From an uncultured Paracoccus sp. (GTDB taxonomy: Bacteria; Pseudomonadota; Alphaproteobacteria; Rhodobacterales; Rhodobacteraceae), in the NCBI RefSeq assembly GCF_937873615.1, contig NZ_CALMYP010000017.1, forward strand, positions 1 through 64,000: a DNA stretch of 64,000 nt. Reading direction: 5' to 3'. Positions 39,813 to 47,907 of this stretch are shown here, piece after piece (the stretch's first letter is position 1; the number at the start of each line of letters is the position of its first letter). Below the pieces are notes generated by a model. The model did not search any database and was not told where the DNA came from. It worked only from the letters and a program-made list of their open reading frames with translations. The translations under genes and the position numbers were made by a program.

Positions 39813-39902
39813 GGAGACGTGGCCGAGTGGTCGAAGGCGCTCCCCTGCTAAGGGAGTATACCAGAGATGGTATCGAGGGTTCGAATCCCTTCGTCTCCGC
39901 CA
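39813..39902 (+). tRNA. tRNA-Ser(GCU), CCA encoded
   Basis: 90 bases forming a complete type II tRNA. The acceptor stem is GGAGACG/CGTCTCC with discriminator G and encoded CCA. The anticodon loop CTGCTAA puts GCT at 39847-39849 on a CTCCC/GGGAG stem. A long variable arm (TATACCAGAGATGGTAT) and the T loop GGTTCGAATCC follow. The 3' end is the integration target for the adjoining island: the integrase gene starts 66 bases downstream. Confidence 0.98.
39889..39902 (+). repeat. Candidate left attachment site (tRNA-Ser 3' end)
   Basis: CTTCGTCTCCGCCA, the last 14 bases of the tRNA, recurs in direct orientation at 49425-49438. Tyrosine integrases of this type usually recombine within tRNA 3' ends. 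Confidence 0.55.
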
Positions 39903-39968
39903 TAACACGCTAAAACAATGACTTAGGCCTTGGACAGGCAAGTGCGACACAAAGTGGAGCATACGCCC

Positions 39969-41573
39969 ATGAAACTGTCCGCCTACCTGTCACCGTCACG
40001 GCACGGGGTTTTCTATTTCCGTTGGCCATTGCCCTGTGGCGACCGGCAAACCCGCAGAACCATTAGGATATCGTTAAGAACCAAGTGTCCAGATAAGGCT
40101 GGCGATCTTGCTCGCCATCTCGCATCTTGTGGGCGATTGGTTCGGGATAACAAGACATTGGCACGGCTGAGACAAGACGAAATGCGCGAAATGGTGCGCG
40201 CTTACTTCGCTGCATCACTGGATCGGTATTTGGAGCGGTTAAACGATACCGGGCTATCTGAGCGGTCGCTTGAAGCATTGCAGCAAGAGTTGGACGTGCA
40301 TGAGGACGCCATAGGCGGCTTTGACGACCTGTCAGACCTTTACCTTGATGCTGGTACCTTGGACAGCTTCCGCGCCTCAGCGGGCCTCACAGAGGCTCAA
40401 TGGGCCGAAAATGAAGGCGACCTGCGCCGCGAACTGCGAAAGGCTCGTCGGGGTCAGATAACGGAACTTCTGAGCCGGGTGGAGGCGCTGGAAGGCTACT
40501 CCTTCGCCCAACCCGCCACAGTCTCGCTAGAAACCGGCAAGGCCCCGCAGAGGCCCTCTGCGTCACTCGCGGACGTGTATGAGGATTTCATAGCCGAGAA
40601 CAGTCCGCGTTGGACGACGCAAATGGAAAACCGGGCCAAGGCCTTCCTTGCCGTCATGCTTGAGTTTTTTGACCATGACCGTCCATTCGCGGATATTACC
40701 CGAGAAGACGCTGCCGACTTCAAAAAAGTAGTCATGGCATTGCCGGTCAACCGAAACACCAAGCCGGAAACCAAAGGCCTACCGCTCTTGGAGGCGGTGG
40801 AGGTGGCAGGTGTCAAAAAGATATCCCTTGAGCACTTTAACAATCACATGGCGATGTTCGAGCGGCTTGGTGACTGGGCCAAACGCCACGGGCGCGCATC
40901 CGAGAATGTCTTCGAAGGTATGAAGATCAAAAAACCCAAGGGGGCGAAGACAGACCGAAAGCCTTACAGCTATGCCCAAACAACACGCCTATTCATAGAG
41001 TTGACACAAAACACGTCCGGGCTGGTTAAAAAAGAAGACCAAAAGTGGGGTGGGTTGCTGGGCCTCTTTACAGGGGCGCGGTTGAACGAGATTGCGCAGC
41101 TTCAACCCAGCGACATAGGGGAAGAAGACGGTATTTGGTTTATCGACATCTCGGATGAAGGTGATGACAAGAAGAAACTCAAGGCAGAGGCAAGCAAGCG
41201 CAGGGTGCCGCTTCATTCTGAACTCATCAAGCTGGGTTTTCTTGATTTTGTGCAAACTCAATCAGGCAAACCGCGTCTGTTTATGTCGTTCAGCTACAAC
41301 GAAAAAGACGGTTATGGGCGTAATCTGGGCCGATGGTTCCGCGATACCCTTTTGCCGGGATTGGATATGAAAAAGGAAGGCTTGGTCTTCCATAGCTTGC
41401 GGCACACGATGATTGAGCGATTGGCAAAAGCCGATGTGCAAGAACCCTTGTATCAGGATATCGTGGGACATGAGCGGCAAGGCGTCACGCAAAAGTACTA
41501 TAACAAGGGCGGGCATACACTGGCACAGAAGAAAGAGGCGATAGACCGTTTCACCATCGGCCAAGCCAAATAG
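39969..41573 (+). CDS. Tyrosine-type site-specific integrase
   Basis: 534 residues. An N-terminal DUF6538-like segment (MKLSAYLSPSRHGVFYFRWP) is followed by a helical arm/core-binding region and the catalytic domain with Arg371 in FTGARLNEIAQL, His475 and Arg478 in HSLRHT, His501 in VGHE and the Tyr nucleophile at 510/511 (KYYNKGG). All catalytic residues are present, so it is probably active. I chose ATG 39969 (GGAG upstream) over a TTG at 39930. Its place right after the tRNA and its lower G+C mark it as the integrase of this island. Confidence 0.93.
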   Translation: MKLSAYLSPSRHGVFYFRWPLPCGDRQTRRTIRISLRTKCPDKAGDLARHLASCGRLVRDNKTLARLRQDEMREMVRAYFAASLDRYLERLNDTGLSERSLEALQQELDVHEDAIGGFDDLSDLYLDAGTLDSFRASAGLTEAQWAENEGDLRRELRKARRGQITELLSRVEALEGYSFAQPATVSLETGKAPQRPSASLADVYEDFIAENSPRWTTQMENRAKAFLAVMLEFFDHDRPFADITREDAADFKKVVMALPVNRNTKPETKGLPLLEAVEVAGVKKISLEHFNNHMAMFERLGDWAKRHGRASENVFEGMKIKKPKGAKTDRKPYSYAQTTRLFIELTQNTSGLVKKEDQKWGGLLGLFTGARLNEIAQLQPSDIGEEDGIWFIDISDEGDDKKKLKAEASKRRVPLHSELIKLGFLDFVQTQSGKPRLFMSFSYNEKDGYGRNLGRWFRDTLLPGLDMKKEGLVFHSLRHTMIERLAKADVQEPLYQDIVGHERQGVTQKYYNKGGHTLAQKKEAIDRFTIGQAK

Positions 41574-42380: not shown

Positions 42381-42460
42381 AGTCTAAGGAACTCCTGGAC
42401 TTTTAGATACCTAGATTTAAGATATGGTCAACGCGCCCAGTGCAACAGCATGGGGCGTTC

Positions 42461-42703
42461 ATGCCTAAAACTCTTGGGGATCATAGGCATGATGCTCTTG
42501 TCCGCTACCTCATCGAGAAACGCGGACAGGCAGGCTTGAAGCAGGTCGAACTTGCGGAGCGGATGAAGGTCTATCAGTCCTTCATCGCGCGGCTGGAAAG
42601 CGGGCAACGCCGGGTGGATGTGGTGGAGCTGGTCAAGCTGGGCGAGGTGCTTGGCTTCGATCCGACCGAGATCGTGGACCGGCTCGCAAAGATGTCGGAC
42701 TGA
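42461..42703 (+). CDS. XRE-family helix-turn-helix regulator
   Basis: 80 residues, nearly all one Cro/CI-type domain: GLKQVELAERMKVYQSFIARLESGQRRVDVVELVKLGEVLGFDP. The start ATG at 42461 follows GGGGCG. It is divergent from the exported-protein gene across an AT-rich 80-base gap and convergent with the Res chimera. Such small regulators often control an integrase, a restriction enzyme or their own gene. The domain is intact. Confidence 0.88.
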   Translation: MPKTLGDHRHDALVRYLIEKRGQAGLKQVELAERMKVYQSFIARLESGQRRVDVVELVKLGEVLGFDPTEIVDRLAKMSD

Positions 42704-42810: not shown

Positions 42811-45504
42811 CTATACGTCCAGCGCCTCAGTCTCGAATGCGGCTTTGAAGTCGGTATTGGTCTGCCCCGTCTCATTGAAAAATGGCAATCCAAGAACCGT
42901 ATAATCCCTGCCTTGGAATACCGTCTCAAGTCGGGCCTTGTCTTTCACTTGCTCAAGGAAGTCCTGCTTCCAGTCATCTTGCGGGCGCAACTGTTCGCCC
43001 TTGGGTTCGATGAATAGCTGCAAGATCGTGCTGGCTTCTTCGCCCTTCTTCCTAAGAAACAGAACGAAGTCAGGTTCAAAGGCGCGTCCAGTGTTGAAGT
43101 CGTATAACTTCACCGCCTTCTCGTTTCGCAGCAGGTAGAAGTCATCATACACGCCCCGCAACCGGGCTTCCTGATCGTGCATGTACTTGATGAAGTGCTT
43201 TTCCTGATCGGTCCCGTAGCTGTCGTCATAGGCGTGCCAGTCCTTGCCGCTCAGGTCGATCTGGTCCAACCCCGGCACGTTGCTTTCGGTCCAGCTTAGC
43301 CCGGTCTCGCCTTCGATCCGCAGTTTCAGCACCTTGTCGGTGAAACGGTCCTTGATGGGATAGGGCTTGAAGTCCTTGGTGCCAATATACTCGACGCTTT
43401 CACGTTTCACGCCGCTTTCGATCTGGTGCAGAACGTACTGCGCGATGTCCAGCTTTTGCCGTGCGGTCAGGTTGTCCAAGTCATCCGGCAAGCCGCGCAC
43501 GCTTACTGTCGCGCCGCCAAGATAGGTGTCAGAGGCGACAAACTGCGAGGCGCTGGCGAGTTGCGGGAAATAGGTCCGCAAGTTGGCGAAGTGGAAGAAG
43601 TCGTTGGCGTCCATCGCAAAGCCCAGAATGGCCCTGCCGAAATCGGCCAGCTTGAAGTCGCGGGACACGGGTTCCTTGCTCGACGGTTTCAGCGTCAACT
43701 GCCCACCGCCAAAGGCAGAGGCTTCCGTCACCCGGCCTGTCATCAGGTTAGGATAGGTGAAAGTGCTTTCGATCTTGTAGGCGTCCAGCCCTGCCACACC
43801 GTCGCGCGGGTTGCGCACCCGATCATTCACCCAGACATGATCCCGCTTATAGAGGTCAGTCTGCTTGAAGCTGTCTTTGAGCCGCAGCCGCACCGTCCGG
43901 GCGGTGTCGTCCAACATCCCAGTTTCGCGCAGGGCGTTGCGGATGTCTTGGATGTACTTGGGATTGTGGGAACAGTGGTAGTGCAGTTCTTCCAAGATGC
44001 GCAGGGGCACGTCCACGGCGCTGTCGTATTTGCGCTTTTCCCGCGCCGCGTCGGGCTGTTCCGGGGCAATGAAGGGAAAGTATCGCGCCCCGCGCCCGAT
44101 CAACTGCGCCTCGGCCATCGTGGTCTTGCCAACCTTGTTGGCCTTGCCGTCGCGGGTGTCATAGAGGCGCACAATGTCGAACAGGTTAAGCACGTCCCAG
44201 CCTTCGTTCAGCTTATCGACGGCAAAGATCACCCGTATCTCGTTGTCGCGGTCCTCCAAGGCGTTGAGTTCTATCTGTCTGTTTTCCAAATCCTTGGGGT
44301 TGTTGACGTTCACCACCTTCTCGGGGGCAAAATCGCCCTGTAGCTCACGGGCGAAATCCGCGCCGCTCATGGCTCTTTCATCCATGATGAAGGCAAAGGC
44401 CCGCGAAAGCGTCTCATCGCCCTCAGAGGTTGCCCTGAGCGCGCCCAGCGCCTCACCTGTCAGCCCAGCGACCATCGCCGTGAAAGCCGCTTCGTTGTCG
44501 GCGCTTTCCTTGATCGTCTTGGACTTCATCAGGATCACCGGCTTGCAGTGCAGCCCATGCGCCTCGGCCACCTTGCGGCGATACTGGCTCAGAACCATCG
44601 CCTGCATCATCCGTTCCGCAGGGGGCAAATCGGCCTGCCGCAACTCGATGTCCTTGGAATAACCGTCTTCCCGAAACTGCCGCAGCGAATAGTCGTAGAG
44701 TATCTTGTCGGCATACTTCGCCCGGATCGCGTCGTGGGTCAGGTCCACGGTCGCGGTAAACTCCAACAGCATATTCTCGGGGTGCTGGCGGAAAATCTCC
44801 GACACCGTGCCTTCCCAACTGGCCTTCTCTGCCTTCTCGCCTTCTGTCAGCGTCTTCTTGGTCTCGGCGTTCAGGTGGTGCGCTTCGTCCGAGATCATCA
44901 CCACCTTGTAGTCGCGGAAGTCTTCGATGGTGACGGCGTTCTCCTTCGGGTTCTGCATCCGGGTGTGCAGCCCTTGAATTGTGGTGAAATGAATGTTGAT
45001 TGCATCACCCGACACCGCGTCGAACGTGTCCACCGCGCGAATGTCCACGGGCTTGTCGTCAATCCGCACAGTAGGTGCGAACAGGTGCTTGGCCGATGCG
45101 GGGTTGAGGAAGTTTTCCTTGGTCTTCTCAATGATCTGGGCGGAGTTCACGAAGAACAGGAAGTTGCGATAGCCGAGCTTGCGGAGGAACTTGCCGATCG
45201 CATTCGGGCGCGCGCGTACGCCGGTTGCGTCATGCAAGGCAGATGCCAGCTCCGGCATCGTGATGTCACCGTCCTGCGCGATGATTTCCGCGAAGAAGCT
45301 ACGATGCGGATCGAGCTTTCCCTTGCCCCTGGGCCGACCTTGACGTGCCGCGCGGGCCTGTCCGGTGTGACGGATCGCAAGCCCCCAACGCGCCCCGGTG
45401 GCAGGCGAAAGCTTCAAGCGCAGCGCCGCCGCGCGCCCGCTTAACCCTTCCTCAATCAACTTCTGAAACCGCGCCCGAAGCGCATCCGGCAAAGGTGCTG
45501 ACAT
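42811..45504 (-). CDS. Chimera: IS630-type transposase N-terminus fused to type III restriction Res helicase/nuclease
   Basis: 897 codons, uninterrupted. Residues 1 to ~112 (MSAPLPDALRARFQKLIEEG, LRLKLSPATGARWGL, GRPRGKGKLDPHRSFFAEII, ITMPELASALHDATG) are the helix-turn-helix N-terminus of an IS630-family transposase. At GYR (45166-45174) the protein switches to a Res-type subunit: NFLFFVNSAQIIEKTKENFL, DEAH at 206-209, EFTATVDLTHD, NEGWDVLNLFD, LIGRGARYFP, and a C-terminal PD..EPK nuclease motif (about 811-835). The Walker A part, which should lie N-terminal of NFLFF, is missing, so ATPase activity is doubtful. No Mod methylase is nearby. The start has GGGAGG 8 bases upstream. Confidence 0.85.
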   Translation of the reverse strand: MSAPLPDALRARFQKLIEEGLSGRAAALRLKLSPATGARWGLAIRHTGQARAARQGRPRGKGKLDPHRSFFAEIIAQDGDITMPELASALHDATGVRARPNAIGKFLRKLGYRNFLFFVNSAQIIEKTKENFLNPASAKHLFAPTVRIDDKPVDIRAVDTFDAVSGDAINIHFTTIQGLHTRMQNPKENAVTIEDFRDYKVVMISDEAHHLNAETKKTLTEGEKAEKASWEGTVSEIFRQHPENMLLEFTATVDLTHDAIRAKYADKILYDYSLRQFREDGYSKDIELRQADLPPAERMMQAMVLSQYRRKVAEAHGLHCKPVILMKSKTIKESADNEAAFTAMVAGLTGEALGALRATSEGDETLSRAFAFIMDERAMSGADFARELQGDFAPEKVVNVNNPKDLENRQIELNALEDRDNEIRVIFAVDKLNEGWDVLNLFDIVRLYDTRDGKANKVGKTTMAEAQLIGRGARYFPFIAPEQPDAAREKRKYDSAVDVPLRILEELHYHCSHNPKYIQDIRNALRETGMLDDTARTVRLRLKDSFKQTDLYKRDHVWVNDRVRNPRDGVAGLDAYKIESTFTYPNLMTGRVTEASAFGGGQLTLKPSSKEPVSRDFKLADFGRAILGFAMDANDFFHFANLRTYFPQLASASQFVASDTYLGGATVSVRGLPDDLDNLTARQKLDIAQYVLHQIESGVKRESVEYIGTKDFKPYPIKDRFTDKVLKLRIEGETGLSWTESNVPGLDQIDLSGKDWHAYDDSYGTDQEKHFIKYMHDQEARLRGVYDDFYLLRNEKAVKLYDFNTGRAFEPDFVLFLRKKGEEASTILQLFIEPKGEQLRPQDDWKQDFLEQVKDKARLETVFQGRDYTVLGLPFFNETGQTNTDFKAAFETEALDV

Positions 45505-45660
45505 GAACCATCCTCCCAAACAGGACGAATCACAGATCAGGCCTCAAGGGAATCCCTACGATTCAGGTTTTCGGCGGAAGGCTTTATCGCCACGCTAGAT
45601 CCGATGCCCATGACCTGTGGGCCGGATACACCCTTGAAATGACTGCCTGAAAGACGCCGC

Positions 45661-46504
45661 TCAGGCCGAATTCGCGCGCATCAGAACAAGTTGGCAATCC
45701 CCGCGCAACCCATCGGCAAAGTAGCGCTCGCCTTGGCGGCGCAGGCGGGTGATCCGATGTGGTGGTACGTCGGCCAGAATGTCCGGTGAGAGGTCCAATT
45801 CTTGTAAAAATTCCAACCGATCCAGAAGTCGCGATGCTCCAGCCGAGTTGCTACCCGCCTCGAAACGGCAAAGCCAGATGAACCGGGTGACATTGCCATC
45901 CACGATCTCGGTCAACAGCGCATCCAGGCGTTCTTTCGTTCCATCGTCGATCCTGTTGGTGATCCGGCTTTCGGTCTGGCGCTCGGTCGACACCAGAGCA
46001 TCTGCGCATAACCGTTCGATGACAGAGATGCCGGGCAGGATCACCTGCGACTGGCGGCACTCTTCGACAAATCGGAGCGCCAGGTCTTCGTTGGATCGGG
46101 CAGTTTCAGCCTCATTCTCAAGCCAGGCCTTCAGACTCCGCGCGCCTTTGGCCCGAGAACATCTTGAAGCCATAAATCTGGCGAAGGGCGTGCAGGTGCT
46201 GCTGACGGGTTTGCCGGCGTGCGGCATAGGGTAAGACATGGTCGCCGGTCAGACCCAACTGGGCTGCGATGAAGCGCAAGACCTTTTCCGGGATGACTTC
46301 GCCAGATGACAACAGCCGCCCAGGATAGCGTAGGGCACAGAGCTGTAGGGCAAAACCGATCTTGTTCTCCGGTCGTCGCCGTTCGTTGATGTGTTCGATA
46401 TCGTCGTCTGCCAGCGTGTAATGCCGCAACATTAAGGTCTCGTCAGTCGGCAAGTCGAAAAGCGCCGCACGCTGGCGCTCGGTCAGAATGGACCGTCTTG
46501 GCAT
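45661..46504 (-). pseudogene. Tn3-family transposase, N-terminal fragment with frameshift
   Basis: Two overlapping frames together give the N-terminal DUF4158 region of a Tn3 transposase. The first (46504-46118) reads MPRRSILTERQRAALFDLP to YGFKMFSG. The second continues GARSLKAWLENEAETARSNE to GERYFADGLR and then loses family resemblance near 45702. One extra base in the AAA run (46147-46149 on the plus strand) breaks the frame. The catalytic DDE region, several hundred residues, is absent. The truncation point faces the IS630-derived start of the chimera, so IS insertion or deletion probably removed the rest. Confidence 0.85.
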
Positions 46505-46568
46505 GTTGGTTTGTCCTTGTTAATCAGATGTCTGTTCGGGACACATCTCGCACCAGCAAAGTGAACGA

Positions 46569-46577
46569 CACACCGGC
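46569..46577 (+). repeat. Target-site duplication, left copy
   Basis: CACACCGGC directly abuts the left end of the IS256-family element; the identical right copy is at 47908-47916. Confidence 0.82.
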
Positions 46578-47907
46578 GAGAGTGTCCGACCTTTTGTGTA
46601 TGAGTGATCCGGTCCATGCTTCACCGAAAGGAAGCATGAATGACCATCTCGAAAGAAATCCTGGATGAACTGCTGAAGGGCTGCAAGCGGCCTGAGGATC
46701 TGCTTGGCGATGCCGGGCTGATGAAGGAGCTGAAGATCAAGCTCATGGAGCGGATGCTGGGAGCCGAGCTGACCGCGCATCTTGGTTACGAGGAGGGCAA
46801 GGACGCCCCGCCGGGCCAAACCAACCGGCGCAACGGCACATCGGCCAAGGTGCTGAAGGCCAGGACGGCGAGGTGCCGCTGGCCGGGCCGCGCGACCGGG
46901 AAGGCAGCTTCGAGCCTGAGCTGGTGAAGAAGGCCAGACCCGGATCGACAGGGTGGATGACAAGATCATCGTGCTCTATGCCGCTGGCTTGTCGGTGCGC
47001 GACATCCAGGCTCACCTGGAAGATCTTTACGGCTTGCGGGTTTCACCCGACCTGATCAGCCGCGTGACCGATGCCGTGCTGGACGAGGTCCGGGAATGGC
47101 AGCACCGGGCGCTGGACCGAATGTATCCGATCGTCATTTTCGACGCCCTGCGCGTGAAGATCCGCGATGCCGACAGCCGGATGGTGAAAAACAAGGCCGT
47201 TTACATCGCCTTGGGCGTCACCCGCGAGGGGGAACGGGAAGTTCTGGGCCTCTGGATCGCCGACAACGAGGGGGCCAAGTTCTGGCTGTCGGTGATGAAC
47301 GAGCTGCGCAACAGGGGCGTCCAGGACATCCTGATCGCCGTCGTGGACGGGCTGAAGGGCTTCCCCGAGGCGATCACCGCGACCTTCCCTGAGACCATGG
47401 TCCAGACCTGTATCGTCCATCTGATCCGGCATTCGATGAACTTCTGCAGCTGGAAGGACCGCAAGGCGGTGGCCGCCCACCTGCGCCCGATCTATCAGGC
47501 TCCGACCGCCGAGGAGGCCGCCCGCCAGTTGGACACCTTCGAGGAGAAATGGGGCGCGAAATACCCGTCCATCGCTCCGGCCTGGCGCCGGGCTTGGGCC
47601 GAGGTCACACCGTTCTATGCCTTCAGCGCAGCGATCCGGAAAATCATCTACACCACCAACGCCGTGGAATCGCTGAACCGGGTGCTGCGGAAGACGCTGA
47701 AAACCAAGGGCTCCTTCCCGACCGAGGAGGCCGCGACCAAGCTGATCTTCTTGGCCATCCGCAACTTCGAGAAAGGCGGTCGCGCCGTCCGGGAATGGGT
47801 TGCGGCTCGCAATCAGCTGGCCATAATGTTCGCCGGGCGCTTCGACGCCTGAACGTGTCTGAAAACCGCATGGGCCCGGTCAGATACACAGAGTTTCGGA
47901 TACTCCC
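46578..47907 (+). mobile_element. IS256-family insertion sequence, complete, 1330 bp
   Basis: Both ends are visible as imperfect inverted repeats of about 25 bases: left GAGAGTGTCCGACCTTTTGT, and right (reverse complement) starting GGGAGTATCCGAAACTCTGT. They are flanked by 9-base direct repeats, a duplication length usual for IS256. A single transposase gene fills the interior but is frameshifted. The element split a segment that includes an IS1380 transposase tail. Confidence 0.85.
46640..47852 (+). pseudogene. IS256-family (mutator-type) transposase, two frameshifts
   Basis: Opens normally (MTISKEILDELLKGCKRPED, HLGYEEGKDAPPGQTNRRNG) up to SAKVLK, then shifts frame at 46856-46863. The middle piece (GEVPLAGPRDREGSFEPELVKK) is in another frame until 46930-46937. 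The third piece from MDDKIIVLYAAGLSVRDIQ runs intact to the end with the DDE residues in VIFDALRVKIRD, VVDGLKGFPEAI and NAVESLNRVLRK. Both lesions are a single G missing from the same context (AAGGCCAG for expected AAGGGCCAG). With the two bases restored, the protein would be about 404 residues, normal for the family. Confidence 0.88.

Follow-up and report, generated by a model that had tools for sequence, protein, structure and literature searches.

An open reading frame joining an IS630-family left end to a truncated type III res gene, probably a young pseudogene

An uninterrupted frame of 897 codons in the window (the whole 64,000-nt stretch analysed here, from an uncultured Paracoccus sp.) begins as the first open reading frame of an IS630-family insertion sequence and continues as a type III restriction subunit (Res) that has lost its native N-terminus. 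We read it as the outcome of a recent microhomology deletion that ran from an IS630 element into a res gene and left a young fused pseudogene, and place the probability of this reading at about 0.88.

Results

Two parents in one frame

The chimeric frame (Table 1) starts in the ORF listing at an ATG at 45504, an in-frame TTG also being present 15 nt upstream. An earlier note on this DNA had proposed, from the sequence alone, that it is an in-frame IS630-res chimera, and this is borne out by family matches to both parents and by copies of the IS part in the same genome. Residues 10-113 correspond to positions 2-111 of the 299 in the NCBIfam IS630 transposase model NF033545 (E 1.1e-7); the score of 31.6 bits falls short of the curated threshold of 100, which is normal for a fragment. 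A Pfam search returned no family for this part. Beyond it, residues 103-253 match positions 44-162 of the 164 in Pfam ResIII, and residues 107-879 match positions 93-847 of the 873 in the PADLOC REase_III profile PDLC03651 (E 2.7e-138). The DEAH, GRG and PD..EPK motifs that the note had read as intact are all there: DEAHH at residue 206, GRGAR at 470, EPDFV at 810 and FIEPKG at 831, together with TAT at 250. In an alignment of 40 sequences the nuclease positions E810, P811, D812, E833, K835 and G836 are invariant, and the chimera keeps the C-terminal PD-(D/E)xK nuclease motif.

The P-loop GSGKT that marks a type III Res is absent from the chimera. Residues 1-112 contain neither [AG]x4GK[ST] nor GK[ST], and none of the 80 relatives fetched for comparison, from 188 matching loci in a scan of genome contigs, starts with the sequence of these residues; a Walker A in this region and Res homologues with this beginning had both been named beforehand as evidence against a chimera. 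In 78 of the 80 res loci GSGKT lies exactly 20 residues before the junction, in a frame that continues upstream; of the two loci with no GSGKT call, L043 aligns from query residue 200 and L051 from residue 398, where its contig ends. The invariance of GSGKT in alignment A2 (39/39) provides no independent support, because the rows were selected for GSGKT. In the model of one intact relative, the L031 protein, the lost native part comprises the first helices, the Q motif, the first strand, and the P-loop with its helix. A DNA match to the region was obtained in 46 of the 80 loci, none of them extending into the IS part past 45187, near the joint. The nearest islands reach 92% DNA identity over res plus some sequence beyond, and at seven loci similarity continues downstream of res to 42401 or further.

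Table 1. Features of the chimeric frame and its surroundings, in window coordinates.
Feature	Coordinates	Strand	Remarks
tRNA-Ser(gct)	39813..39902	+	presumed integration site, judged from its position
Island integrase	39930..41573	+	relatives start at an in-frame ATG about 39 nt further in
Cro/C1-type HTH gene	42440..42703	+	downstream of res in related islands too
Chimeric ORF: IS630 orfA (aa 1-112) and C-terminal 785 aa of type III Res	42811..45504	-	897 aa
5'-truncated res	42811..45168	-	DEAHH, TAT, GRGAR, PD-ExK kept; native residues 1 to about 86 lost
Deletion junction	45169..45175	-	7-nt block CGGCTAT common to both parents
Left 418 nt of IS630-family element	45169..45586	-	terminal TAAAGCC..., leader, orfA to codon 112
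Tn3-family transposase gene remnant	45661..46569	-	frameshifted, cut short; left of IS630 end
IS256-family transposase gene	46640..47852	+	two frames; beyond Tn3 remnant

The IS part is nearly identical to copies in the same genome: it differs at 1 of 418 nt from the copy on contig C51, at 3 of 418 from that on C68 and at 0 of 361 from that on C4, and has one base not common to the C51 and C68 copies. At the protein level the N-terminal part of the chimera recurs in its own genome with identities of 98% (two places), 96% and 69%. The family match and this near-identity identify it as the IS630 N-terminal ORF, which in this family presumably carries a helix-turn-helix. The left ends of the three copies all begin TAAAGCC, and their flanks are unlike each other. 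The C68 copy aligns over about 1000 nt with a congeneric element and continues as far as the end of its contig, at 1061; the C51 copy sits less than 2 kb from a contig end. A complete IS630 element would have a DDE catalytic ORF and two ends; the chimera retains just the left 418 nt, and since the catalytic ORF and right end are missing the fragment should not transpose by itself.

Left-end fragments of IS630 recur in this genome: the copies on C4 (L107) and C51 (L105) part from the C68 copy after 361 and 606 nt respectively. In L105 and L106 a run of seven A, some 425-431 nt in from the left end of the IS, stands just past the point equivalent to the joint. The IS630 reading frame passes there from the first to the second ORF, and the run resembles a programmed frameshift site of the kind known in this family.

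The joint

At the joint the closest IS parent reads ...AAGCTCGGCTAT followed by ACGCAT, the closest res parent ...CGGCGCGGCTAT followed by CGCAAC, and the window ...AAGCTCGGCTATCGCAAC. The two parents share the block CGGCTAT, overlapping the GYR codons at 45174-45166 where a microhomology deletion had been suspected. When the C68 copy and the L044 res take the place of the real parents, 1.04e-4 of all distinct IS/res breakpoint pairs (about 1 in 10,000) share a block of at least 7 nt, a P value of about 1e-4 that agrees with the suspicion; the in-frame outcome by itself has a chance of 1 in 3.

An adjacent deletion made by the IS630 transposase at the res end, rather than microhomology repair, would give the same dead fusion. 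The two other genome copies that have lost their right part, after 361 nt and 606 nt respectively, would suit such an origin, but the breakpoint is inside the element rather than at its terminus, and within the 7-nt shared block; we consider it unlikely. We think it very unlikely that the joint is an assembly chimera of an IS630 copy and a res gene: the element is indeed repeated in the genome, and its C68 and C51 copies lie, respectively, at a contig end and less than 2 kb away from one, but the parents share only 7 nt at the joint, far under usual assembly word sizes, and this is the sole res of its kind found in the genome, so that no intact donor res was seen.

On the microhomology reading, a type III restriction-modification island (integrase, small genes, res, mod) would have lain beside a tRNA-Ser gene, with an IS630-family element upstream of res, adjoining a Tn3-transposase remnant. 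A deletion at CGGCTAT would then have fused the IS630 first ORF, at its codon 112, with res at about codon 87-90, taking with it the right part of the IS, the intervening DNA (probably including mod) and some 86 codons from the start of res. Comparison with intact relatives establishes the loss of these ~86 codons; the order of events we infer. Because the reading frame is preserved across the joint, the 897-codon frame now has the start codon and leader of IS630 at its head.

The island and its missing mod

In four related islands (L026, L028, L031, L044) res is preceded by genes of 625-645 and about 443-467 codons, with an integrase-like gene (split in L044) further downstream; in L031 the neighbours were identified by Pfam and PADLOC as a type III mod and an integrase. 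A mod is recognisable in 73 of the 80 loci, and in five of the seven loci that lack it, under 1400 nt precede the match. No cognate mod stands beside the chimera: tblastn gave no mod match in the window at 1e-10. The two best mod matches in its own genome are partial, covering residues 176-556 (47%) and 177-549 (46%) of 645, and four more are weaker. The gene of about 443-467 aa that precedes mod in the nearest islands (L031:2283-3686, with counterparts in L025, L026, L028, L029, L032, L044 and L049), possibly an accessory gene, is recognisable in 9 of the 80 loci, L042 having it on the opposite flank of res; neither Pfam nor PADLOC gave a match for its L031 copy. It is absent from the window, and was not found in the window's own genome in a search run without a positive control.

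The integrase frame begins 28 nt after tRNA-Ser(gct), a position that suggests integration at the tRNA gene; no att repeat of the tRNA-Ser end of at least 15 nt occurs in the window. On the other side of the chimera, the IS256-family transposase is probably inactive.

Occurrence elsewhere and decay of res

A search for the same fusion elsewhere, one of the checks proposed in the earlier note, was negative across the genomes, plasmids and viral contigs covered. No other genome among the 125 of the genus set has both parts in one frame, and when the 394 genomes of the family set and the 385 of the class set were searched with Res, the window's own match was the only one to begin close to the joint; the three sets overlap. 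Six plasmid records gave a match, in no case with the two parts spanning the joint, and viral contigs held no exact copy of the 21-base junction string. Conservation in more than one lineage, as domestication calls for, was thus not seen in the sets searched. None of the titles of the matches listed in a literature search concerned an IS630-Res fusion, which is not proof of absence.

Decay of res, on the other hand, is common, as judged from the family set, in which four of the eight copies matching at E 1e-50 are broken inside contigs, and from a split copy in the class set. Three of the eight are whole (G411, G350, G142). Those broken (G000, G217, G158, G378) include that of the window's genome; the G217 copy has a frame change near residue 329, the G158 copy ends at 467, and the G378 copy starts at 322 and also changes frame. 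The eighth, in G154, stops 74 nt from its contig end and is cut by it; its contig is probably the same as that of L051, both having a length of 228919. In the class set the res of G553 is nearly whole, and that of G769 is split in two frames near residue 199.

A second 5'-truncated res was found in another genome of the genus (G008, contig C1; L109:4989-7380). It is 87% identical to the chimera over residues 107-897, has no GSGKT, is open to its end, and shows native homology from about residue 80. At its joint, where there is an in-frame ATG, it adjoins the 3' portion of an oppositely oriented phage terminase gpA gene; this fragment lacks most of the ATPase domain and has an open frame of 411 codons, still unbroken, which suggests that the G008 joint is recent too. 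The res breakpoints in the two genomes lie only a few codons apart, these being two cases. That a Res without P-loop has been kept for an ATP-independent role in these two congeneric species, here with an IS630 DNA-binding head, is to our minds very unlikely.

Selection and age

The note had ascribed the open frame to recency or selection and had suggested comparing dN/dS of the Res part. We fitted a GY94 branch model to 783 codons of 16 sequences: the window plus 15 relatives, chosen out of 81 because they are close and have an unbroken frame, which tilts the background towards intact genes; left out among others were the broken L039 and L049 and the partial L043, L050 and L051. The one-ratio omega is 0.079 and that of the window branch 0.062, with omega = 1 rejected (2dlnL 131). 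Tested each alone, other terminal branches give 0.070 (L109), 0.067 (L032), 0.054 (L030), 0.053 (L028), 0.052 (L044) and 0.031 (L031); against one ratio, 2dlnL is 0.86 for the window and 0.63 for L109.

The window branch carries 0.134 substitutions per codon, or about 105 changes over the 783 codons. Given one unshared base in the IS part, simple scaling indicates that few of these ~105 Res changes would postdate the fusion. The branch being thus mostly older than the fusion, neither the open frame nor omega is a test of the fusion's function, and omega, which cannot address the time after fusion, was dropped as evidence of it. The low value, mostly built up before the fusion, and a frame open over 785 Res codons are compatible with function and explained by youth. 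Recency is therefore the half of the proposal that stands, with the IS part 0-3 bases from its copies; selection gains nothing from an omega of largely pre-fusion origin.

Structure models and activity

The AlphaFold2 model of the fusion reaches a mean pLDDT of 76.9 but a pTM of 0.49; for the native L031 protein the values are 78.9 and 0.45. In the fusion the ten-residue block means over residues 1-90 are 29-65; the alignments held no IS630 relatives, so that the columns used to model the IS part came from unrelated native N-termini. Foldseek matched both models mostly to SF2 helicases, HsdR included, with TM-scores (query length) of at most 0.26 among the 50 matches listed for each; 4ZCF was not among these. 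A single-sequence search of solved structures gave clamp-loader P-loop matches only, near E 0.005. The models thus support an SF2 helicase core, and show no confident rebuilt ATP site such as the note had asked to look for, residues 1-90 being of low pLDDT.

Published work on EcoP15I states that ATP hydrolysis is absolutely required for cleavage, that RecA1 carries motifs Q and I, and that the Mod CTD contacts Res (PMC4490356); Mod serves DNA recognition and is reported to stabilise Res (PMC4490356, PMC3874151). On that published need for ATP and Mod, and with no replacement for the P-loop lysine, DNA cleavage by the chimera is very unlikely. Neither ATP hydrolysis nor site finding is to be expected, because the Q motif, first RecA1 strand, P-loop with its helix, and cognate Mod are gone; the fusion product should be inert or degraded.

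We weighed against this a working fusion, in which the IS630 helix-turn-helix would bring the PD-ExK nuclease or the DNA-binding Res core, free of ATP, to IS630 ends or elsewhere. The nuclease motif and several SF2 motifs are retained, as is the IS630 start region, and in the models one helix of the IS part stops at the joint in much the way that the native P-loop helix does, a slight hint that the RecA1 sheet may perhaps be partly kept. Residues 1-112, however, are without a P-loop, and 1-90 have pLDDT of only 29-65; the cognate Mod is absent and EcoP15I, in the source cited above, needs ATP hydrolysis; and the fusion was found once among the genomes, plasmids and viral contigs searched. We hold a working fusion to be very unlikely. 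The note's suggestion of a nuclease with a new DNA-targeting domain accordingly finds no support: the P-loop side of the ATP site and Mod are lost, the putative targeting domain is modelled with low confidence, and no second genome with the fusion turned up in the sets searched.

Discussion

The note's alternative suggestion, a young pseudogene, is supported by the near-identical IS part, the loss of the P-loop and the missing mod. The case is most likely one of ordinary genome decay, in which the hybrid gene is readable but dead. It provides a base-level example of an IS fragment and a defence gene turned into one open frame, and a caution that a dead gene may show a long open frame, intact motifs and a low dN/dS inherited from its history before the break. 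Were the fusion to work, a transposase-headed nuclease would have been created in one step.

Among known systems, the chimera shares with type III Res (PDLC03651; prototype EcoP15I) the DEAHH, TAT, GRGAR and PD-ExK motifs, but differs in having no Q motif, GSGKT or cognate mod. The link to EcoP15I is based on the family models and a common architecture, since the REase_III family profile matches no solved structure at E 0.001. With IS630-family elements it has in common the left end and leader, near-identical to the genome copies, but being cut inside the element it lacks the catalytic ORF and right end. The truncated res of G008 has lost nearly the same part of the gene as the chimera, but is joined to a phage terminase gpA fragment instead of to IS630.
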